Assembly (NCBI RefSeq): GCF_003612125.1
Contig: NZ_RAWI01000047.1
Span: 1-36,818 of the forward strand
Direction of reading: 5' to 3'
DNA from: Corallococcus praedator
GTDB taxonomy: Bacteria; Myxococcota; Myxococcia; Myxococcales; Myxococcaceae
DNA length: 36,818 bases
Shown: in pieces, positions 1 to 35,564 of the stretch
Position numbering within the stretch: position 1 is the stretch's first letter
Layout of the letters: every line of letters starts with the position of its first letter
Made by a program: the position numbers and the translations under genes
The notes under the pieces: generated by a model
What the model saw: only the letters and a program-made list of their open reading frames with translations
What the model was told of the DNA's origin: nothing
The model's database searches: none

Positions 1-19
1 AGATGTGTATAAGAGATAG
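1..19. other. Nextera transposase mosaic-end adapter remnant
   Basis: The first 19 bases match the 19-bp Tn5/Nextera mosaic end with a single difference (T instead of C at base 17). This is library adapter, not genome, so the true genomic sequence starts at about base 20 and the window begins at a contig end. Confidence 0.9.
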
Positions 20-510
20 GTCTGGAGGCCCGCCTTCAGCGAGGGGGCTTCCGGCAGGGCGCCTTCGGCCCGGACTACGAGTTGGCGCGCTTCCAGGTGG
101 CGGGCCCGGTCTCAGTGCCGCTGGCGGAGGCGTCCTTTCCGGAGGGGGCTTCCGCCTACGGGGAGGTGATTCTCAGTTGGGACGCGGTGCGGCTGAGTGG
201 CATGCGCCAGCGACACCTCTTCCTCTCCCTGGGAGTGGAGGCCTTCTCCTGGAGCCGGGTGGACGTGGACGGGCGCGCGGAGGTGCAGCTCTTCCACCGG
301 GACTTGAGTCTGGGTGTCGGCGGGCTGGCGACGGCCATGGGCCAGCCCGGAGCGCGCTACGTCGTCTCGGGGGAGGCCCGGTGGCGCTTCCTGGGAGGCA
401 ACCTCTACGCGTTGGGGCAGGGCGGCACGCTGCTGTTCCCGACGGTGGAAGGGACGCTGCGGCCGTGGGCCTTCGCGGCCGTGGGGCTGGGGGTGGACAA
501 TGCGCGCTGA
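20..510 (+). CDS. Partial barrel-like helper protein upstream of a SitA-like toxin (5' truncated)
   Basis: The open frame runs from the adapter to a TGA at 508-510, so the N-terminus is missing. About 160 residues remain, rich in alternating hydrophobic and polar stretches with glycine turns (for example the run ending GVDNAR). This suggests antiparallel beta-strands of an outer-membrane or periplasmic barrel. Its stop lies inside the start of the next gene (11-base overlap), so the two are translationally coupled. In Myxococcus the SitBAI toxin loci carry an accessory gene (sitB) directly before the lipoprotein toxin gene, and this position fits that role. The assignment to SitB rests on position and coupling only; I do not recognise the sequence itself. 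Confidence 0.55.
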
Positions 511-21875: not shown

Positions 21876-23036
21876 ATGATGGAGCTGGAAGACCTCACGG
21901 CGTTCGAGCAGCACCTGGCCGGAGGCCGGAGCCTCGCCAACGTCATCCTCCAGGGCCTGGACCTGACGGCGTGGAGCGACGCGCTGCTGCGCTCGGACCT
22001 TACCGGCACCGTCTTCCTGGGCTGCCTCTTGGACGCGAAGACCCTGCTGCGGGTGGTGGAGCAGGGCGCCATGGTGTTCCCGCCGTTCTCGGGCCTGCCC
22101 TATTCGCCCTACCGGGGCAGTCTCTACACGCCGGAGGAGCTGTACGCGGGCTTCGACCCCGCGCACCCCGACACCTATGCGGATACGCCGGATGCCCGCA
22201 TCTACGCGCACTGGAACTCGCGCGGCGGGGCGAACCCTCCGTCCCTGCTGGAGACCCTGGCGCAGCGGCTGCACGACCACGCCATCAGCGATGCCCTGGA
22301 AGATGTGCTCCAGCACGAGGGCCGGCCCCGCAGGGTCGTGGCCATCATGGGCGGACACTCCATGCTGCGCGGCGCTCCGGACTACCGCTCCGTAGCGGAG
22401 CTGGCCCGTGCCCTGGCGCGCCGGGGCTTCTTCCTGGTGAGCGGTGGCGGTCCGGGCGCCATGGAAGCCACGCACCTGGGCGCGTGGTTCGCCGGGCGGA
22501 GTGATGGCGACCTGGACGCGGCGCTCGCGCTGTTGTCCCAGGCTCCGTCCTACAAGGACCGTGAATGGCTGGCCCGGGCCTTCGAGGTCCGTGCGGCCTG
22601 GCCGATGCGCGACGAGGACCGCGCCCTGGGGGACAGCCTGGGCATCCCGACCTGGCTCTATGGCCACGAGCCGCCCAACCCGTTCGCCACGCGCATCGCC
22701 AAGTACTTCGCCAACAGCGTGCGCGAAGAGGGCCTGCTCACCATCGCGCGGGGCGGCGTCGTCTACTCCCCCGGCAGCGCCGGCACCGTGCAGGAGATCT
22801 TCCAGGACGCCTGCCAGAACCACTACAACACGGTGGGCATCATCAGCCCGATGCTCTTCCTGGGCCGCGAGTTCTGGACGCAGACCCGACCGGTGTACCC
22901 ACTGCTGGAGCACCTGGCGCGAGGACACGAGTACGCGCGCCACCTGCTGCTCACGGACTCGCAGGAGGACATTGTCCAGGCGCTCGTGCGCTTTGATCAA
23001 GAGCGCGAAGGGGCGCTGCCTCCGCCCCCTCGCTAA
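21876..23036 (+). CDS. LOG-family Rossmann protein, long form
   Basis: This 386-residue protein starts at ATG 21876. The nucleotide-binding core begins near residue 165: IMGGHSMLRG, then FFLVSGGGPGAMEATHLGA, and later YSPGSAGTVQEIFQDACQNHY. The last is the PGGxGTxxE-type site of LOG/lysine-decarboxylase-like proteins, with S-A replacing G-x. Common LOG proteins are about 190 residues, so the roughly 150-residue N-terminal part is extra and unrecognised. LOG enzymes release free cytokinin bases or hydrolyse nucleotide monophosphates. The altered motif makes activity uncertain. Its stop overlaps that of the converging ThiF-like gene by a few bases. Confidence 0.75.
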   Translation: MMELEDLTAFEQHLAGGRSLANVILQGLDLTAWSDALLRSDLTGTVFLGCLLDAKTLLRVVEQGAMVFPPFSGLPYSPYRGSLYTPEELYAGFDPAHPDTYADTPDARIYAHWNSRGGANPPSLLETLAQRLHDHAISDALEDVLQHEGRPRRVVAIMGGHSMLRGAPDYRSVAELARALARRGFFLVSGGGPGAMEATHLGAWFAGRSDGDLDAALALLSQAPSYKDREWLARAFEVRAAWPMRDEDRALGDSLGIPTWLYGHEPPNPFATRIAKYFANSVREEGLLTIARGGVVYSPGSAGTVQEIFQDACQNHYNTVGIISPMLFLGREFWTQTRPVYPLLEHLARGHEYARHLLLTDSQEDIVQALVRFDQEREGALPPPPR

Positions 23037-23614
23037 TCCGCCGCGACCGGCGTCACGGCCAACAGGTTCACGAAGGCGTCCCGCTTCACCCCGTGCTTGA
23101 GGAAGTCCTGCACCGTCCGGGCGAGCGTGGCCGCCAGCAGTCCCAGGAAGGGCAGGTGCTCGCCGCCTTCACAGGTGGCCTGCCCCTGCGTGTCCTCGGC
23201 GTCCGGGACGAAGCGCTCGTCCCAGCGCACCAGTCCGAACGTCCCGTCCGCGGACACCGCGCCGTGCACCAGCGGCGTGCCCGTCTTCCGGGCGTGGTCG
23301 CTGAGCAACTGACGGCTGTCCTGGTTGTCGAACGCGTCCACCAGCAGGTCCGCGCCCTTGCACAGCGCCTCCACGTTGTCGCGCGTGAGGCGCACGCCGA
23401 AGGACTCCGCCTTCACGCCGTGCAGGTTGTGGAACTGGAGCTTCAGCGCCTCCGCCTTGTTCTTCCCGACGGACGGCTTCACGTACGCCTGCGACAACAG
23501 GTTCTTCGACTCCACCCGGTCGAAGTCGATGAACACCAGCGTCGCGTCCAGGTTGCGACACAGCAGGGCCGCCGTCGAACCGATGGCCCCCACCCCGCAG
23601 AAGACGATGCGCAT
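23033..23614 (-). CDS. E1-like/ThiF-family adenylyltransferase
   Basis: This 193-residue protein starts at ATG 23614. All ATP-site elements of the E1/ThiF/MoeB fold are present: G7-V-G-A-I-G12, D30-x-D32 followed by RVESKNLLSQ, K51/K53, and D93-A-F-D96. A Cys148-E-G-G segment lies where ThiF proteins have their conserved C...GVLGP region. It is shorter than ThiF/MoeB (about 250) and lacks the CxxC zinc pairs. Such enzymes adenylate the C-terminus of ubiquitin-like or sulfur-carrier proteins. An 82-residue beta-grasp-like candidate partner is encoded 8 bases upstream in the same operon. No thiamin or molybdopterin genes are nearby. Confidence 0.85.
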   Translation of the reverse strand: MRIVFCGVGAIGSTAALLCRNLDATLVFIDFDRVESKNLLSQAYVKPSVGKNKAEALKLQFHNLHGVKAESFGVRLTRDNVEALCKGADLLVDAFDNQDSRQLLSDHARKTGTPLVHGAVSADGTFGLVRWDERFVPDAEDTQGQATCEGGEHLPFLGLLAATLARTVQDFLKHGVKRDAFVNLLAVTPVAAD

Positions 23615-23622
23615 GGCGGCCC

Positions 23623-23871
23623 TCAACGCGCCCCGAAGGGCACCTTCGGACGCAGGTAGATGCGCTCGTCACCGCGAGCGCCCCGGAAGCGGTCCACGAC
23701 GTAGTGCTGGAAGGCGTCCTCGCCCAGGTGGATGCGGTGGAGGCCGGGCACTCCGCCCGAGCGCACCAGCTCCACCGCGATGCGGCGCACGTCCGTGTCG
23801 CTGATGGCCCGCTCCAGCTCCACCGGCACGTCGGCCGACAGTCCGTCGAAGGTGATGTTGAGCGTGGCCAT
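23623..23871 (-). CDS. Small beta-grasp-like protein (candidate Ubl partner of the E1-like enzyme)
   Basis: This 82-residue protein starts at ATG 23871 behind AAGGAGG. The pattern of strands and helix reads as beta hairpin (TLNITFDG, ADVPVELE), helix (DTDVRRIAVELVRSG), then strands (LHRIHLG, QHYVVDRF, ERIYLRPKV). This fits a ubiquitin/ThiS-like beta-grasp. The C-terminus is PFGAR, not GG, so adenylation would need trimming or a different chemistry. It sits 8 bases before the E1-like gene, as in PRTRC and other bacterial Ubl/E1 pairs. The fold is inferred by eye only. Confidence 0.6.
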   Translation of the reverse strand: MATLNITFDGLSADVPVELERAISDTDVRRIAVELVRSGGVPGLHRIHLGEDAFQHYVVDRFRGARGDERIYLRPKVPFGAR

Positions 23872-24112: not shown

Positions 24113-24829
24113 ATGGAGTCACCCCCAGCACAGCATCACTGGAACGTCACACCCCGGGAGGCCGTGGCGCTGCAGAAGCGCCTGCGCGAACAGCTCATCC
24201 TCCAGCCGCCTCCGGGCCTGAAGGTCACGCGGCTGGCGGGCGCGGACATCTCCACGGAGAAGGGCAACGACACGGGCTATGGCGGCATGGTGGTGCTGGA
24301 CGCGGCGACGCTCCTGCCCCTCGCGCGGTCCGTGGCGGCGGTGCCGCTGTCCTTCCCGTACGTCCCGGGGCTGCTGTCGTTCCGCGAGCTGCCGGTGCTG
24401 GCGGCCGTCTGGGCGAGGCTGACGGTCCGGCCCGACGTGCTCGTCTTCGACGGCCAGGGCACCGCGCATCCGCGAAGGCTGGGCATCGCCTGTCACGGGG
24501 GATTGCTCTTCGACGTGCCGTCCATCGGCTGCGCCAAGTCGCTCCTGGTGGGCACGCCCGGCAAGCTCGCGGACCGCAGGGGGGCCACGGCCCCGATTAC
24601 ACACCAGGGCGAGGTGGTGGGCATGGCGGTCCGCACGCGCCAGGGCGTCAGCCCCGTGTTCGTCTCCCCCGGCCACCGGATGGACCTGGAGACCGCCGTG
24701 GAGTGGGTGCTCAAGGCGAGCCCGCGCTACCGTGAGCCGGAGACGACGCGCCACGCGCACCGGCTGGTCAACGCCTTCCGCCGGGCAGGAGGTGAGGCGT
24801 CGGAGCTGGAGGAGGGGAGTCCCGGATGA
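24113..24829 (+). CDS. nfi: Endonuclease V (deoxyinosine 3' endonuclease)
   Basis: This 238-residue protein starts at ATG 24113 with AGGAGG ten bases upstream; the frame extending from 23732 is an artefact of high GC. Catalytic residues are in place: Asp45 in GADIS, Glu92 in FRELP and Asp113 in VFDGQGTAHPRR, with the wedge YVPGLLSFREL and the conserved HGGLLFDVPSIGCAKS. The enzyme nicks DNA near deaminated adenine (hypoxanthine) to start repair. Its stop overlaps the next start (ATGA). It is divergent from the Ubl/E1 pair. Confidence 0.95.
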   Translation: MESPPAQHHWNVTPREAVALQKRLREQLILQPPPGLKVTRLAGADISTEKGNDTGYGGMVVLDAATLLPLARSVAAVPLSFPYVPGLLSFRELPVLAAVWARLTVRPDVLVFDGQGTAHPRRLGIACHGGLLFDVPSIGCAKSLLVGTPGKLADRRGATAPITHQGEVVGMAVRTRQGVSPVFVSPGHRMDLETAVEWVLKASPRYREPETTRHAHRLVNAFRRAGGEASELEEGSPG

Positions 24830-28678: not shown

Positions 28679-29848
28679 ATGCCTCGCTGGCTCAGCCTCG
28701 CGCTGTTCCTCGTGCCGGTCATCTCGCTGCTCGCGGTGGCCCACGTCTACCTGTACCGCCGCCTCGTGCGGGATGTGACGGCGCGCAAGGGACTGCGCCG
28801 CGCTGGAATCGTGCTCTTCGTCGGAGGCTTCGTGGGCTCCGTGGGGGCCCGCATGCTGGGCGCGATGCTCTCCTCCGAAGTGGCCCGGACGGTGGGCATC
28901 GTGCTGCTCTTGTGGATGGGGCTGGTGCTCTACCTGCTGATGTTCACGCTGGCCCTGGACGTCGGCGGCCGCGTCCTCGCCCGCGTGCGCAAGGCGCCGG
29001 AGCCTCCGTCACCGGAGCGCCGGGCCTTCCTCGCGACGGGCCTGGCGGCGGGCGCCACCGTGGCCGGCGCGGCGGTGAGCACCTACGGCGCCTGGCGTGC
29101 CTTCCATCCTCCGGACGTGCGCGACATTCCGGTGCGACTGCCCCGGCTGCCCAAGGCGCTGGAGGGCTTCACGCTGGTGCAGCTCACGGACATCCACATT
29201 GGCGGGGTGCTGCAGCGCCGCTTCGTGGACGAGCTGGTGGCGCGCACCAACGCGCTCAAGCCGGACCTCATCGCGGTGACGGGGGACCTGGTGGACGGCA
29301 CCGTGGCGGAGCTGGGGCGCTACGCGGGGGGCTTTGGCGCGCTCAAGGCCCGGCACGGTGCATTCTTCGTCACCGGCAACCACGACTATTACTCGGGCGC
29401 GGATGCGTGGGTGGCGTTCGTCCAGGGGCTGGGCATCACGGTGCTGCGCAACCGCTCCGTGTCCATTGGGGACGCGAGCGCGTCCTTTGATCTGCTGGGC
29501 GTGGACGACTGGAGCGCGCAGAAGCTGGGCGAGCCCGGCTACGACCTGGACGCAGCGATGCGCGGGCTGCGTCCGGACCGCGCGTCGGTGCTGCTGGCGC
29601 ACCAGCCCTCCAACTTCCAGGAGGTCGCCCGCCGCGACGTGGGCCTCCAGATTTCAGGGCACACGCACGGCGGACAGATGTTCCCGGGCAACGTGCTGGG
29701 ACACCTCATCTGGGGTGAGCAGAACGCGGGCCTGAGCCAGATGGGCAGCTCCCACCTCTACGTCAGCCGGGGCTGCGGCTTCGTGGGGCCGCCCATGCGC
29801 GTCGCCGCGCCGCCGGAGATTGCCCGCATCATCCTGCTCCCGGGCTGA
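28679..29848 (+). CDS. Membrane-anchored metallophosphoesterase (YkuE-like)
   Basis: This 389-residue protein has three or four membrane helices in residues 5-100, then a hydrophobic segment after SPERRAFLAT. The catalytic domain (160-389) has all metallophosphoesterase blocks: D171-I-H173, G-D203 in TGDLVDG, G-N-H-D (233-236), AHQPSNF and SGHTHGGQM. YkuE-type enzymes act on phospholipid-like substrates such as UDP-diacylglucosamine. The substrate here is not certain. Its 3' end overlaps the converging JAMM gene by 20 bases. Confidence 0.9.
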   Translation: MPRWLSLALFLVPVISLLAVAHVYLYRRLVRDVTARKGLRRAGIVLFVGGFVGSVGARMLGAMLSSEVARTVGIVLLLWMGLVLYLLMFTLALDVGGRVLARVRKAPEPPSPERRAFLATGLAAGATVAGAAVSTYGAWRAFHPPDVRDIPVRLPRLPKALEGFTLVQLTDIHIGGVLQRRFVDELVARTNALKPDLIAVTGDLVDGTVAELGRYAGGFGALKARHGAFFVTGNHDYYSGADAWVAFVQGLGITVLRNRSVSIGDASASFDLLGVDDWSAQKLGEPGYDLDAAMRGLRPDRASVLLAHQPSNFQEVARRDVGLQISGHTHGGQMFPGNVLGHLIWGEQNAGLSQMGSSHLYVSRGCGFVGPPMRVAAPPEIARIILLPG

Positions 29849-30212
29849 GCCGGGGCTGGCCGTACAGCAGCCCTGACGCAATGCGGAGCGGCGCGGCCCA
29901 CGGAGGCTCGTGCCGCACGGGCACGTCCTCCCCGCCGACGCGGGCTACCATTCCGTCGGGCGCCACCACCGAGAAGCGCAGCGGCCGGCCCAGCGCCGCC
30001 TGCAACGCGGCCATCGTCGTCTCATCCTCCGATGAGAAGCCGAGCGGTCCTTCGGGGTGGCTGTGGGTCACCTCTACCAGCGTGTCCCGCAGGCTCCAGA
30101 TGGCCTCCCACCGCGCCCGGGAGTCCGGCAGCGCCACGGGGTCGTCGAACGAGTCGCCCCACAGCACTTCGTCTCCGGGCCCGATGAGCAGGCACACCTC
30201 GCGTGTCGACAT
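29829..30212 (-). CDS. JAMM/JAB-domain metallopeptidase, minimal
   Basis: This 127-residue protein starts at ATG 30212 behind AGAGG; a longer frame adds only a low-complexity start. The JAMM signature is exact: H50-S-H52-P-x6-S60-x2-D63 (H-x-H-x7-S-x2-D), within VEVTHSHPEGPLGFSSED. Glu15 is the likely catalytic base. Bacterial JAB proteins cleave isopeptide bonds or trim ubiquitin-like or carrier proteins. It is the last gene of a three-gene minus-strand operon with an unknown protein and a VWA protein. Its 3' end overlaps that of the converging phosphoesterase gene. An E1-like/Ubl pair lies about 6 kb away. Confidence 0.8.
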   Translation of the reverse strand: MSTREVCLLIGPGDEVLWGDSFDDPVALPDSRARWEAIWSLRDTLVEVTHSHPEGPLGFSSEDETTMAALQAALGRPLRFSVVAPDGMVARVGGEDVPVRHEPPWAAPLRIASGLLYGQPRLSPGAG

Positions 30213-30261
30213 GAGCCCCTCTCTTCTCCGTGGTCCTCCCGGACGCGGGAGGCGCGTGTGT

Positions 30262-31350
30262 TCAGACATGTCGGGTGATGACCAGCGCGCCCGTGTCGAT
30301 GGCTTCCTTCAGCACGGACGGCAGGCTCTCCAACGTCACCCGGTCGTCCGCGCCCGCCAGGCACACGCCCGCGTCGCGCACCCGCAGCGTCGCCATCTCC
30401 ACCACGGTGACGAAGCGCTCGCCCATGAAGCTGTAGACCACTTCCATCAAACCGACTCCCAGCCGGCGGTGGTCGAGCATCCGCGCGCCGGCCTTGCTCA
30501 ACGCGCGCTCCGCCCATTCGCCGGACGCCGCCTCCGCGCGCCGCTGCTGGCCGGACGTGAGGCCCGCTCCGGTCCACGTCCCTTGCGCGGAGGCCCCGCC
30601 GCGAACACCGTGCGCCATCCGCTCCTGGGCCCTCGCTCGGGTCGCGGCATCCTGGCGGAATTCCTGAAGGGTTCGCTCGCGCTCCGTCCGCGCGGACTCC
30701 AACGCCCGGGCCTCCGCGTCCCCACGGGCCTGTTGTTCCGCCTGCATCCGCACGAAACGGACACGCTCGTCCGCGAGCCGCCGCAGACACGCTTCCGCCT
30801 CCGCGCGTCCACCGCGGGCGACGTCGAGCACGCGCGCGCGGGCCTCCACCGGTGCGAAGGGGATGCCCGTGCCGCGCGACGCGACCTCCAGCACCGCGAA
30901 GCTGAACGCCGCGCGCAGGGACGCGCCCACGCCTCGCGCTTCCCCCAGCGGACGGTCCTCTTCCAGCGCGTGTCGCGCCAGTTCCTCCGACTCGCTTTCG
31001 AACTCCACGCCCTCGAACACGAGCGTGCCGTCATGCCAGCGGCGCGCCGTCACCGGCGAGAGGCGCGGCGGCTCTTCCTCCGGCATCAACGCCAGGGGCT
31101 CCGCCACCGCGCCTTCGCGCACCAGTCGCGTGCCCCACAGGTGGCCCCGCACGCGCGGCCGGTCCTCCAGCCCTTCGGCGGAGGCCGGCTCGCGCGCGGT
31201 GGCCTGACGGCCCTTCACCTCGAAGCGCCACCAGCCCGGTGCGACGGGTGTGGTGAGGTGCAGGCGGCGTGAAGGCGCGTCCACGGTCCCGCCGCCGAAA
31301 TACGGCAGCACCGCCGACTCCACCTTCCCGAGCAGCTTCCGGTAGTCCAC
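30262..31350 (-). CDS. Unrecognised 362-residue protein of the VWA/JAMM operon
   Basis: It starts at GTG 31350, seven bases after AAGGAGG and 13 bases after the VWA stop. The N-terminal 150 residues look like a mixed alpha/beta domain (YFGGGTVDAPSRRLHL, GWWRFEVKGRQA, GTLVFEGVEFESE). Residues 175-245 are a charged, Arg/Glu/Ala-rich coiled coil. The last 75 residues are a compact domain (MEVVYSFMGERFVTVVEM, GVCLAGADDRVTLESLPSVLKEAIDTGALVITRH). There is no catalytic motif or signal. It probably bridges the VWA and JAMM proteins. I do not know the family. Confidence 0.7.
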   Translation of the reverse strand: MDYRKLLGKVESAVLPYFGGGTVDAPSRRLHLTTPVAPGWWRFEVKGRQATAREPASAEGLEDRPRVRGHLWGTRLVREGAVAEPLALMPEEEPPRLSPVTARRWHDGTLVFEGVEFESESEELARHALEEDRPLGEARGVGASLRAAFSFAVLEVASRGTGIPFAPVEARARVLDVARGGRAEAEACLRRLADERVRFVRMQAEQQARGDAEARALESARTERERTLQEFRQDAATRARAQERMAHGVRGGASAQGTWTGAGLTSGQQRRAEAASGEWAERALSKAGARMLDHRRLGVGLMEVVYSFMGERFVTVVEMATLRVRDAGVCLAGADDRVTLESLPSVLKEAIDTGALVITRHV

Positions 31351-31363
31351 GCCCCTGCCTCCT

Positions 31364-33124
31364 TCACGCCACCTTCAACAGGGGCGTGCTCATCACACGG
31401 TCCACCCAGCCGGACTGGTGGGCTCCCTCCATGCGCGGCGCATCCATCAACGTCTGGAGCACCCGCGGCACCTGGTAGGGGTCCGCGAACTGCCCCACGC
31501 TCACCTCGCTGAACGGCACGCCCAACTGTGCCGCGCCCGTGCGCACCGTATTGCCGCGCGCACCCGCTACGCTCACCAGCATCGCCATCGCCGCCACGGT
31601 GTAGCCGCACGCGTGGAAGGCCTTGGCGAACTGGTCGCCCGCCTCGCCCGCCTCGTCACCCACCACCATCACCACCAGCTTCGCCTCCGCCGGGATGCGC
31701 ACGCCCGCGCGGTGGAGCGCGTGCACCGCCGCCCCGTGCACCGTGCCACCCGACGCCTTCATGTCGGCCAGCATGTGCTGCACCGCCGTGCGGTTGGCCG
31801 CCTTGGGCTTGAGCACCGTGCCCATGGTGTCGAACGCCGCCACGTGCAGCTTGTCCATCGGGAAGCCCGCGAGGATGCGCGACAGCGCCTCCTTCGACTG
31901 CTCGATGGCACCCTCCATGGACCCCGACTTGTCGATGAGGAACATCACCCGCACGTCCATGTCCGCCGTCGCCTGCGCCACCGCGTGTCGCGCGGCGTTG
32001 TCGCTCGCCTCCTCCAGCTTGCGGCGCAGGTCCTCGCCCCGGACGTTCTTCGCGATGTTCAGCGAACGCTGATCCGTGGCGCGAGACACCGCCCGCTCCC
32101 AGCGCGCCTTCACGCTGGGCTCCTCCATCAGGCCCAGCTCCTCCAGCGTGGGCGTCATCAGCCGCAGGTCGCGGTCCGACAGCGACGGCAACAGCGTCGC
32201 CAGGATGGCCGGCGTGAGCCCCACGTCCTTCGGCAGGCGGCCCACGACCTCCTTGTAGGAGAGGCGCTCCAGTTCAATCCACTCGCAGATCTCCGCCTCG
32301 CTGAGCCCGTCGAAGCGCTCGCGCTTCACCAGCGTGAGCCCGTGCAGGCCCACGTCGCGGTGGCCCCCGTCCGCCTGCTTCTGCTTCCAGCCGAGCACCT
32401 CGAAGAAGCCCTGCGACATGGGCTTGTAGCCGGCCTTGCGCGCCAGCTTCTTCAGCGTCTCCTTGTAGCCGGCCTTCACCAGACCCTGGAGCATGGGCAG
32501 GTTCGCCTCGCGCGCGGCCAGCCACTTGCGCGCCACGCTCTTCCAGCGGCCCATGGGCGGCTTGTGCGACGCGGGGTCGCCGAAGCCCGCCTCACGGTTG
32601 AGGCGCGCGATTTCAGGCACCTCCAGGAGCTCCGCCACGCGCAGCACCGCCTTGGGTGTGAGCATGCGCGTGGAGCGGCGCACGTAGTGCAGCACCATGG
32701 CCTCGCCGATGGCGCGGAAGTCGTCGTCGTGGAAGGCGACCGCGCCCTGGCCGTCGCGCACGGGCAGGCCCGCGTGACCCTGCACCAGCATCAGCGCGCA
32801 CGTGGCGACCTTCAGGTCGCGCCAGTCCGTCTGCGTCAGCGCGTACGACGCGAAGTGCGCCATCAGCGTGGGGTTCAGGCGGTACAGCTCCAGGAGCTGG
32901 CCGTACAGCTTCACCGCCGCGGGCACGAACAGGCCCGGGGCCACCTTGGGCCAGCGCGCGCGGGCCTGCGGATGCGCGTGCGCCGCCGCCTCCCAGGTTC
33001 CGGACACGTTCAGGCCGGGGCGGTGGTGCCACAGGTGCGCGGAGCCGCCGAGCACCACGTCGAGCAGTCGCTCGGCGGGTCCCCGCTGCGTCTCCGGAAG
33101 GGTCGTCTGGGTGCGCGTCGTCAT
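31364..33124 (-). CDS. VWA/MIDAS protein with helical N-terminus, Ro60-like layout
   Basis: This 586-residue protein starts at ATG 33124 with AAAGGGGG six bases upstream. Residues 1-385 are helical and repeat-like. A VWA domain follows, with a complete MIDAS: D398-K-S400-G-S402, Thr461 in SGGT and Asp490 in VVGDEAG. A helical array before a C-terminal VWA is also the layout of Ro60/TROVE proteins, and PSLSDRDLRLMTPTLEELGLM resembles their helical repeats. However, the standard TROVE opening (ERFLxLGTEGGTYY) is absent, so Ro kinship is only possible. It heads the operon with the 362-residue protein and the JAMM peptidase. A hairpin cluster with a T-loop lies 140 bases upstream. Confidence 0.75.
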   Translation of the reverse strand: MTTRTQTTLPETQRGPAERLLDVVLGGSAHLWHHRPGLNVSGTWEAAAHAHPQARARWPKVAPGLFVPAAVKLYGQLLELYRLNPTLMAHFASYALTQTDWRDLKVATCALMLVQGHAGLPVRDGQGAVAFHDDDFRAIGEAMVLHYVRRSTRMLTPKAVLRVAELLEVPEIARLNREAGFGDPASHKPPMGRWKSVARKWLAAREANLPMLQGLVKAGYKETLKKLARKAGYKPMSQGFFEVLGWKQKQADGGHRDVGLHGLTLVKRERFDGLSEAEICEWIELERLSYKEVVGRLPKDVGLTPAILATLLPSLSDRDLRLMTPTLEELGLMEEPSVKARWERAVSRATDQRSLNIAKNVRGEDLRRKLEEASDNAARHAVAQATADMDVRVMFLIDKSGSMEGAIEQSKEALSRILAGFPMDKLHVAAFDTMGTVLKPKAANRTAVQHMLADMKASGGTVHGAAVHALHRAGVRIPAEAKLVVMVVGDEAGEAGDQFAKAFHACGYTVAAMAMLVSVAGARGNTVRTGAAQLGVPFSEVSVGQFADPYQVPRVLQTLMDAPRMEGAHQSGWVDRVMSTPLLKVA

Positions 33125-33655: not shown

Positions 33656-34327
33656 GTGTACGAGCAGCTCACGGATGAGGAATTGTTCGCGGAGGTGTCA
33701 CGCCGCCGCACCACGGGCGAGCCCGTGGGCAACCCCTTGGGGGCCCTCTGCGCGCGATGGGCGCGCCCGGCCCGCTACGTCATCAGCAGGATTCAAGGCA
33801 GCTACGGACGCGGTTCTCCGGCGGACGCCGACGAGCTCTTCCAGGACGCGGTGGGGAAGTTCCTCGACCGGGGCCTGGATCAGTTCCGCGGCGTGTCCGA
33901 ACAGATGCCGGGCAGGAGCGCGTCTCCCAAGACGTTCTTCCTGCGCATCGTCAAGCACGTCGCCATCGACTTCTACCGGCGACACCGGGAGGAGCTGGCG
34001 CCCGCGCCGGCCTCGCCCGATGACGTCATGGAAGAGACCCCGTCCGAGGTGGCCCGGGCGGTGGAGGGCGCACGGCGTCGCGAGGAGCGCGCCGAGGCGC
34101 AGGAGTTGTATTGGGCCGCCTACGCCAGGCTCCAGCAGGAGCACCCCAAGGAGGCTTCAGCATGGGAGCTGTATCACCACGAGGACGTGGAGGATCACGA
34201 GGAATGCGCACGGCGTTTGGACATCAGCGTGGTGAATTCGTACAAGCGCGTCAGTCGCGCCCAGGCATACCTGCGCCTGTACCTGCTCGAATTGCAGCGG
34301 GACGGACTGCCGGAAGAGCCTTCGTGA
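33656..34327 (+). CDS. ECF-type RNA polymerase sigma factor
   Basis: This 223-residue protein starts at GTG 33656, the only reasonable start after an in-frame TGA at 33620. Region 2 is visible: ADELFQDAVGKFLDRGLDQF, then SPKTFFLRIVKHVAIDFYRRHREE, which matches the sigma-70 region 2 helix that ends DxxRR. A variable linker (about 115-145) precedes region 4-like helices (AYARLQQEHPKEASAWELYHHEDVEDHEECARRLDISVVNSYKRVSRAQAYL). Forty-six bases downstream is a zinc-finger protein that could hold it inactive. It is probably autoregulated, as ECF factors usually are. Confidence 0.85.
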   Translation: MYEQLTDEELFAEVSRRRTTGEPVGNPLGALCARWARPARYVISRIQGSYGRGSPADADELFQDAVGKFLDRGLDQFRGVSEQMPGRSASPKTFFLRIVKHVAIDFYRRHREELAPAPASPDDVMEETPSEVARAVEGARRREERAEAQELYWAAYARLQQEHPKEASAWELYHHEDVEDHEECARRLDISVVNSYKRVSRAQAYLRLYLLELQRDGLPEEPS

Positions 34328-34373
34328 AATCCCTCGGAGGGATGCCGTCCTCCGCCCCGCGCGGGATGCCGCG

Positions 34374-35564
34374 ATGAAGGGCGACGCGCTGTCCCGCTAC
34401 CAGGCCCGTCAAGCACGCCTGGCCGCGGGTCCCGCTCCGGTGGGCGAGCTGTTGGAGGTGGTGGGGGACGTGCTCCGCCGGTCGGACCGGCTGGGCACCG
34501 AAGGGGTGGAAGAGGCCCTGAAGTCGCTGGGCCGCGCGGAGCTGGAAGCCTGGCTGCGCGCGCAGAAGCCCCAGGCGCTCCAGCCGCTGCTGCTACGGGC
34601 CGCCGAGGAGTCGATGGAGGCCGCGCTGGGCGAGGAAGGTGAGGAGGCCGAAGTGTGGCGCGCCTCCGCGCTGGAAGGACTCTCCGCCCGCGACCGGGCC
34701 GCCTCCGCCGCCCGCGCGCTGGTGACGTGGGAGATGCTGAAGGGCCCGCTGGAAGGGGATGCTGCCGCCGCTCGCGAGCGCTTCCTCGGGGCGCTGGGCT
34801 ACCTGGACACCGCGCTGCGCCCCCGGGCGCGCTGGTTCATCCCCCTCAACGCCGAGCGCCGCGCCGAGCGCGACCTGTTGGATCCCGTGGAGCGCCCCGG
34901 CGCCTGGTGGTTCTCCGCGCGGGCCGGCTGCGACGACCTGCTGGCGTCCTGGACGGGCAAGCCCCTGAAGGACACCGAACACCTGAAGGACTGCGCCGGT
35001 TGCCGCGCGGACCGGGCGGAGACCGCGGTGGTGGACATGCCCCCCCGGCGGCACCTCACCGCCGAAGAGCTGTGGCGCCTGGACGCGGGGGAGATGGGCC
35101 GCGAAGAGAAGGCGCGCGTGGAGGCCCACACCGCCTGGTGCGGCGAGTGCGCGCAGGCCGTGCTGGCGCTGGAAGAGGGCGACACCGCCATCGAAGAGGC
35201 GCTGGAATTGGAAGAGGAAGGGCTGTCCGCCCCCCGCGCGGCACGGGACTCCCGCGCGGACGCGGCCCGGCGCCCGGGCGCGGCCCGCCTGCCGGAGCAC
35301 CGTGAGGTGCTGGAGGAGCGGCGCGACTTTCGCGTGGTGCTGGTGCGCGAGCGTCAACGGGTGAGGCTGCTCGTGCAGCCCCTGGGCACGCGCGCCGTGA
35401 CGGCCGCCGTCTTCCTGTCGCCGGGGCGTCCGTCGCTCAAGCCGACGCAGGGACCGGAGGGCTTGTCCTTCGACCTGTCCACGGCGCTGGCCACCGGCGC
35501 GCACGCGGCCCACCTCACGGTGCAGGCCGGACAGGAGACGCTGGAGCGCGACTTCGCGTTCTAG
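34374..35564 (+). CDS. Zinc-finger protein, probable anti-sigma partner
   Basis: This 396-residue protein starts at ATG 34374, just after the sigma-factor gene. The N-terminal half is helical and Ala/Glu/Leu-rich. Two Cys/His clusters follow: CDDLLASW...HLKDCAGC (about 181-210) and HLTAEELWRLDAGEM...HTAWCGECAQAVL (about 226-265). The second has the H-x3-C-x2-C arrangement of zf-HC2 anti-sigma domains. After an acidic stretch comes a beta-rich C-terminal domain (about 310-396). No membrane helix is present, so if it is an anti-sigma factor it is soluble. The role is inferred from the finger and the gene order. Confidence 0.65.
   Translation: MKGDALSRYQARQARLAAGPAPVGELLEVVGDVLRRSDRLGTEGVEEALKSLGRAELEAWLRAQKPQALQPLLLRAAEESMEAALGEEGEEAEVWRASALEGLSARDRAASAARALVTWEMLKGPLEGDAAAARERFLGALGYLDTALRPRARWFIPLNAERRAERDLLDPVERPGAWWFSARAGCDDLLASWTGKPLKDTEHLKDCAGCRADRAETAVVDMPPRRHLTAEELWRLDAGEMGREEKARVEAHTAWCGECAQAVLALEEGDTAIEEALELEEEGLSAPRAARDSRADAARRPGAARLPEHREVLEERRDFRVVLVRERQRVRLLVQPLGTRAVTAAVFLSPGRPSLKPTQGPEGLSFDLSTALATGAHAAHLTVQAGQETLERDFAF

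Follow-up and report, generated by a model that had tools for sequence, protein, structure and literature searches.

A conserved cassette of myxobacteria and huge phages encodes a candidate ubiquitin-like protein, its predicted enzymes and a distantly Ro60-like protein

Here we report that five genes lying in two places of a 36,818-nucleotide stretch of Corallococcus praedator DNA (NZ_RAWI01000047.1, positions 1 to 36,818; this whole stretch is called the window below) are one conserved cassette, present together or not at all. The genes encode a VWA-domain protein (VWA), a middle protein (MID, the "unknown protein" of the original prediction, which had been made from the letters of the window alone), a minimal metallopeptidase (JAMM), an 82-residue ubiquitin-like candidate (Ubl) and a ThiF-like candidate activating enzyme (E1). 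All are on the minus strand, and residues and genes are given as in the window:

31364..33124, minus strand: VWA protein, an N-terminal helical TROVE/Ro60-like array followed by a VWA domain (PF13519, E 1.1e-8)
about 31919-31933, minus strand: MIDAS motif D-K-S-G-S of VWA, its residues invariant in 26 homologues
30262..31350, minus strand: MID protein, with a predicted beta-rich (OB-like) N-terminal domain, a long helix and a C-terminal helix-four strands-Cys-helix domain
30358..30375, minus strand: MID motif D-A-G-V-C-L with the candidate catalytic Cys330, picked out by sequence conservation
29829..30269, minus strand: JAMM/JAB minimal metallopeptidase (an alternative start, ATG at 30215, is possible)
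30024..30065, minus strand: JAMM motif H-S-H-(x7)-S-x-x-D, read from the sequence
23623..23871, minus strand: Ubl candidate, 82 residues, C-terminus ...RIYLRPKVPFG/AR (slash, predicted cleavage), recognized by co-occurrence and by its JAMM-to-E1 position in contiguous loci
23626..23640, minus strand: Ubl tail P-F-G and the two-residue extension A-R, with predicted JAMM cleavage after Gly80
23033..23626, minus strand: E1/ThiF-like compact adenylating enzyme (ThiF, E 1.1e-20; an alternative start, ATG at 23614, is possible)
about 23171-23173, minus strand: candidate catalytic Cys152 of E1, an invariant residue

In the window the VWA, MID and JAMM reading frames are separated by a 13-bp gap and an 8-bp overlap, respectively, a packing consistent with one transcript. 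The trio was proposed in the original prediction, and its three genes are present at 33124-29829 in an order that is kept across families and phages. The overlapping Ubl and E1 genes (23033-23871) lie about 6 kb from JAMM, and the link between these two loci, which had been called speculative, holds. A search for each of the five proteins through one collection of 195 Myxococcota genomes found VWA, Ubl and E1 in an identical set of 76, MID in those 76 plus one weak match, and JAMM in 74 of the 76 plus one weak match. The two cassette genomes lacking JAMM are G068, where the cassette runs into a fragment, and G018. Within a single genus (g7), three genomes have the complete gene set and four have none of the genes.

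Contiguity tells the same story as co-occurrence. A scan of 84,980 species genomes yielded 70 loci, and in most of those outside Myxococcaceae the five genes are contiguous, as in a genome from another family of the order (G155, locus L034), with the order VWA-MID-JAMM-Ubl-E1, and in 15 further loci (L115, L119, L137, L139, L150, L152, L157-L161, L163, L165, L168 and L171). In Myxococcaceae the cassette genes share one strand, and the halves are separated by opposite-strand genes for endonuclease V (EndoV), a GMC oxidoreductase, DUF2267, ACBP and YaeI; Hyalangium-type genomes (L041, L117) have a second VWA copy with MID/JAMM elsewhere. The survey suggested by the original prediction thus finds, in Myxococcota, both co-occurrence and contiguity, which together rule out two independent loci; no actinobacterial homologues were found in the scans made, which were not exhaustive. 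One record titled Comamonas sp. KCTC 72670 (L174) holds a myxobacterial cassette on a 969165-bp contig, equal in length to G125:C2, and is apparently a mislabeled genome.

The same genes are carried by huge phages. Scanning viral contigs with a profile of the MID C-terminal domain returned 27 contigs of 41-452 kb, each holding VWA, MID, JAMM and Ubl in this order; E1 is present in 25 and in the other two was not found within the fetched stretch. A terminase was detected in 15 of 26 viral records. The Caudoviricetes phage Rctr197k has the genes in the order VWA, MID, JAMM, Ubl and ThiF-like E1, all five genes are present in a 595-kb phage, and a cyanobacterial (Kovacikia) plasmid carries the cassette without JAMM. 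This plasmid's VWA homologue was reached via the neighboring E1; a phage-type query returned no VWA on plasmids. Conservation of the cassette across families and phages is far beyond chance. In a quick VWA tree, a long branch with full support separates the phage sequences from the chromosomal Myxococcota sequences, which make up the rest. Three contigs of metagenome-assembled genomes (L108-L110), labeled Deltaproteobacteria, Kofleriaceae and Polyangia and holding 3-26 tRNAs, fall among the phage sequences and are probably misbinned phage DNA. G018, considered as a bacterial outgroup, proved to have a phage-type contig in the same tree and was therefore left out of the argument for inheritance in bacteria.

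In phages and some bacteria the cassette is associated with co-directional tRNA arrays. Most viral loci have 8-35 tRNAs within 16 kb of it, and in 16 viral records 258 tRNAs fall in about 5% of the sequence, where about 34 would be expected, a density roughly 7.6-fold higher (the ratio is approximate, two tRNA callers having been used). Across loci, 453 tRNAs run in the direction of the cassette and 5 in the opposite one. In about 16 loci, among them the chromosomal L133, L137, L160 and L170, the nearest tRNA precedes VWA by 52-240 bp, and the annotated tRNA block of Rctr197k stops 84 bp before VWA. On the Kovacikia plasmid 26 tRNAs adjoin the cassette, which has a polyA/CCA nucleotidyltransferase inside it; an RtcB ligase lies beside the cassette in three contigs (L205, L211, L227); and a 26-tRNA array directly follows E1 in Hyalangium (L117, 14131-16276) and G098 (L041, 9094-11293). 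Two viral arrays adjoining the cassette include tmRNA genes (L206, 13069-13426; L215, 14908-15270), and just before MID on the Kovacikia plasmid (L200, 6941-7015) is a 75-nt match to positions 1081-1156 of the 23S rRNA model.

Three of the proteins bear signatures expected of ubiquitin-type chemistry. JAMM scores slightly below the cut-off of the Prok-JAB family (22.3 bits against 25, E 1.3e-4), but across 27 homologues its E24, H69, H71, S79 and D82 never vary. The loss of conserved JAMM residues that the original prediction named as a refutation is thus not seen. The HxH...SxxD motif is present in 134 of 136 sequences, one exception being cut by a contig end and the other having a longer spacer. 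JAMM has the HxH(x7-8)SxxD metal site and the upstream Glu of JAMM/JAB metallopeptidases and is a predicted Zn-dependent isopeptidase. E1 matches PF00899 (ThiF) at the E-value listed above, and its profile matches the MoeB structure at 6e-13; C152, D34, D36, N42, K57 and D100 are invariant (C152 in 20), and the subtype of cyanobacteria and the 595-kb phage has a Cys in a different local motif. Ubl is conserved over all of its 82 residues, beyond the tail R-P-K-x-P-F-G, in which R74, P75, K76, P78, F79 and G80 are invariant in 28 sequences. After the Gly there is usually a short variable extension, present in 77 of 84 loci with JAMM, whereas Ubl terminates exactly at the Gly in all four JAMM-less loci (L108, L110, L127 and Kovacikia; Fisher 2e-4, not corrected for relatedness, the loci not being independent). 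This distribution agrees with JAMM being the protease that matures Ubl, apart from exceptions given below.

The VWA protein may supply a link to RNA. Its VWA domain scores above the Pfam cut-off, and the myxobacterial family profile alone retrieves VWA domains only, with no direct match to Pfam TROVE (PF05731); a match to phrog_850 (2e-6) likewise covers only the VWA part. When the profile is widened to take in Kovacikia, phage and myxobacterial sequences together, its best PDB match is to TROVE proteins (9kop/9l5y; E 3.5e-6), and human RO60 is reached at E 0.014. Residues 26-318 of the Kovacikia homologue match TROVE proteins (E 0.006), and the myxobacterial profile aligns to this protein across both the helical part and the VWA domain. 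The suggestion that a helical array joined to a VWA domain recalls Ro60 is therefore supported, at a distance, by profile comparison. A search upstream of the VWA gene of the window for a tRNA- or Y-RNA-like element gave no Rfam match above chance.

MID, as first supposed, belongs to no Pfam family, and searches against PDB and viral models gave nothing clear. Its AlphaFold model (mean pLDDT, the predicted local distance difference test score, 88) shows a beta-rich N-terminal domain, weakly OB-like in structure searches, helices including residues 182-249, and a C-terminal domain composed of a helix, four strands, a Cys and a helix; the latter, modeled alone, keeps the same order (pLDDT 74). 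In both models the Cys comes after strand 4, the position of the catalytic Cys in E2 enzymes. It belongs to the motif D-x-G-[IV]-C-L, followed by T-L-E-S-L-P-S-V-I, in which G328 and C330 are invariant in 18 diverse members, phage and cyanobacterial ones included, and G-x-C recurs in 144 of 144 MID proteins found. No HPN tripeptide precedes the Cys in the alignment of MID members; bacterial E2-like families may also be without the classical His (PMC1779556). By topology and Cys position in these models MID may be E2-like, which is not to say that it is a member of the E2 family. The original prediction had the window holding all parts of a tag-and-release system except an E2. That exception may be wrong, given the E2-like arrangement and the invariant G-x-C, though in the fold search E2 enzymes are not the best matches.

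Based on these observations, we judge it probable that the cassette is a protein-modifying Ubl system, and lean slightly toward the fuller proposal that its five genes together serve reversible Ubl modification as one unit, attached to a Ro60-like, predicted RNA-binding scaffold; on a role in tRNA biology our judgment is evenly divided. In the proposed mechanism, JAMM would trim Ubl to its PFG terminus, and E1 would adenylate the C-terminal Gly and then hold Ubl as a thioester on Cys152. Ubl would pass from there to Cys330 of MID, acting as an E2 (or E2/E3) with an OB-like N-terminal domain, and MID and the TROVE-VWA scaffold would deliver the charged Ubl to proteins bound to tRNA or tRNA-like RNA; these targets may be the scaffold itself, or factors that damage or repair tRNA. 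JAMM would also reverse the bond. The physiological role may be tRNA quality control or protection, and phages would probably use it to shield the tRNAs that they encode from anticodon nucleases of the host. In its strongest form, the proposal is of a complete RNA-guided Ubl conjugation pathway, comprising a Ro60-like scaffold for tRNA or tRNA-like RNA, an E1, a single-chain OB-coiled-coil-E2 and a Ubl protease, that is common to huge phages and myxobacteria and modifies tRNA-contacting proteins; this we put forward tentatively, as a doubtful but specific possibility.

Several findings weigh against a conjugation pathway of this kind. Ubl gave no match to Pfam, PDB, Prok_Ub or ThiS profiles, and so has no sequence tie to the beta-grasp fold. 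E1 keeps N42 and Q46 and is without the Arg of the MoeB N-L-x-R-Q motif. Ubl ends at the Gly despite the presence of JAMM in seven loci (L159, L163 and five phage contigs) and in the 595-kb phage. No E2 is among the sequence matches of MID, and in structure searches, for which the tool states Z under 8 as its background range, E2 enzymes (Ubc13, T. cruzi UBC) score Z 3.7-3.8 over 87-95 residues and are outscored for the C-terminal domain by VirB8/NTF2-like folds (Z 5.5 over 60 residues); in the comparison of MID with viral models all matches are under Z 6. Finally, no tRNA adjoins the cassette in most Myxococcaceae, including the window, which has only three tRNAs, 8 kb from E1.

That huge phages and a plasmid of a cyanobacterium carry the cassette would also suit a module that serves primarily in anti-defense or defense: phages would employ the Ubl system to disable anticodon nucleases of the host or to tag its proteins, and the copies in bacteria would have been domesticated. 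tRNA arrays have been regarded as putative anti-defense units (PMC12803027), bacterial Ubl systems function in phage defense (works cited in PMC12660748), and BilABCD is described in PMC11354881. In Myxococcaceae, however, most large genomes carry the cassette stably on the chromosome, unlike patchy defense islands, and PADLOC gave no match for VWA, MID or JAMM and only generic E1-E2 matches for E1; we consider such a module unlikely, though a serious contender.

The tRNA context and the E1-Ubl-JAMM set could instead point to a sulfur carrier for tRNA thiolation, like Thermus TtuB or eukaryotic Urm1: the E1-activated Ubl would gain a C-terminal thiocarboxylate and donate sulfur to tRNA, JAMM would recycle adventitious conjugates, and the invariant MID Cys could carry a persulfide. 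Archaeal Ubls have been linked to tRNA modification (PMC2948915). The tail, however, is PFG instead of GG, Ubl has no similarity to ThiS/MoaD profiles, and the conserved cassette genes include no rhodanese and no recognizable TtuA/Ncs6-type thiolase, which leaves this explanation rather improbable. A small protein with a conserved tail and short variable end beside a ThiF protein and a peptidase also resembles MccB-like modification of a ribosomally synthesized peptide, the small protein being the precursor, ThiF adenylating its end and JAMM trimming it, but conservation of all 82 residues and not of a core peptide alone, the lack of any conserved exporter or immunity gene beside the cassette, and the tRNA and TROVE context make this very hard to credit. 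The analogy to the proteasome lid drawn in the original prediction, a tag-and-release device suggested by JAMM and VWA together and by a faint resemblance between residues 10-118 of MID and the Mpa/ARC inter-domain (Z 5.7 over 99 residues, root-mean-square deviation 3.3), found no support: that Z is within the tool's background, the genes conserved with the cassette include none for a proteasome, an AAA+ protein or an unfoldase, and the cassette's neighbors are tRNAs, RtcB and polyA/CCA nucleotidyltransferase, so that we regard it as highly unlikely.

We view the cassette as a variant of the prokaryotic Ubl systems, with a predicted RNA-binding scaffold and a phage tRNA-array context. Among the closest are the row 6d operons of Iyer, Burroughs and Aravind (2006; PMC1779556), with a stand-alone small Ubl, a JAB, an E1-like protein, a putative E2-like protein with the Cys and without the classical His, and an alpha-helical protein; unlike the cassette, they are described without a VWA/TROVE protein or tRNA array. 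The Ubl and MID of the cassette have no profile match to known families. In BilABCD, too, Ubl, E1 and E2 go together with a JAB peptidase, which matures Ubl to a C-terminal Gly (PMC11354881), but BilA has two Ubl domains, the E1 is a large pseudodimer, and there is no VWA or RNA context. FtsH-ternary vWA-MoxR systems with a tri-ligase Ubl module combine vWA with JAB, E1, E2 and Ubl (PMC7159879), but they also include ATPases of the MoxR and FtsH kinds, EAD domains and caspase-like effectors, of which the cassette showed none. Ro60/Rsr (TROVE-VWA) ribonucleoproteins and RNA repair operons share the TROVE-like array with VWA and the nearby RtcB and tRNA genes, and jumbo phages carry TROVE proteins among RNA-repair genes (PMC7824862), but the literature searched yielded no Ro operon that includes Ubl, E1 and JAMM, and the sequence similarity of the cassette to Ro60 is distant. 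The tRNA array units known from phages, plasmids and mycobacteria share with the cassette loci a high density of tRNA genes together with HNH endonucleases (PMC5966550), but their descriptions mention no Ubl cassette (PMC5966550, PMC12803027). The five-gene combination is undescribed in the literature searched, which covers pieces only; an earlier mention in RNA-repair or TROVE reviews is possible.

Neighboring genes recur as well. An extracytoplasmic function (ECF) sigma factor and a zinc-finger anti-sigma gene (window 33656-35564) are divergent from the adjoining VWA, and the pair is retained beside VWA in many Myxococcaceae, in L034 and in Polyangiaceae (L120, L124); a role as stress regulator of the cassette is possible. 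The endonuclease V gene (24128-24829) is divergent from Ubl, and across much of Myxococcaceae it is either so oriented or placed between the cassette halves. The first reading frame of the window (3-20) reads MCIRDR, which we take to be a Nextera transposon end, so that the contig seems to begin with adapter.

If the proposed mechanism is true, ubiquitin-type tagging and Ro60-type RNA surveillance, two eukaryotic hallmarks, would be joined in one prokaryotic cassette, huge phages would own a protein-tagging system, and genes riding within phage tRNA arrays would have a first testable function. Relatives of Myxococcus xanthus carry the cassette, which is therefore testable in a genetically workable bacterium.

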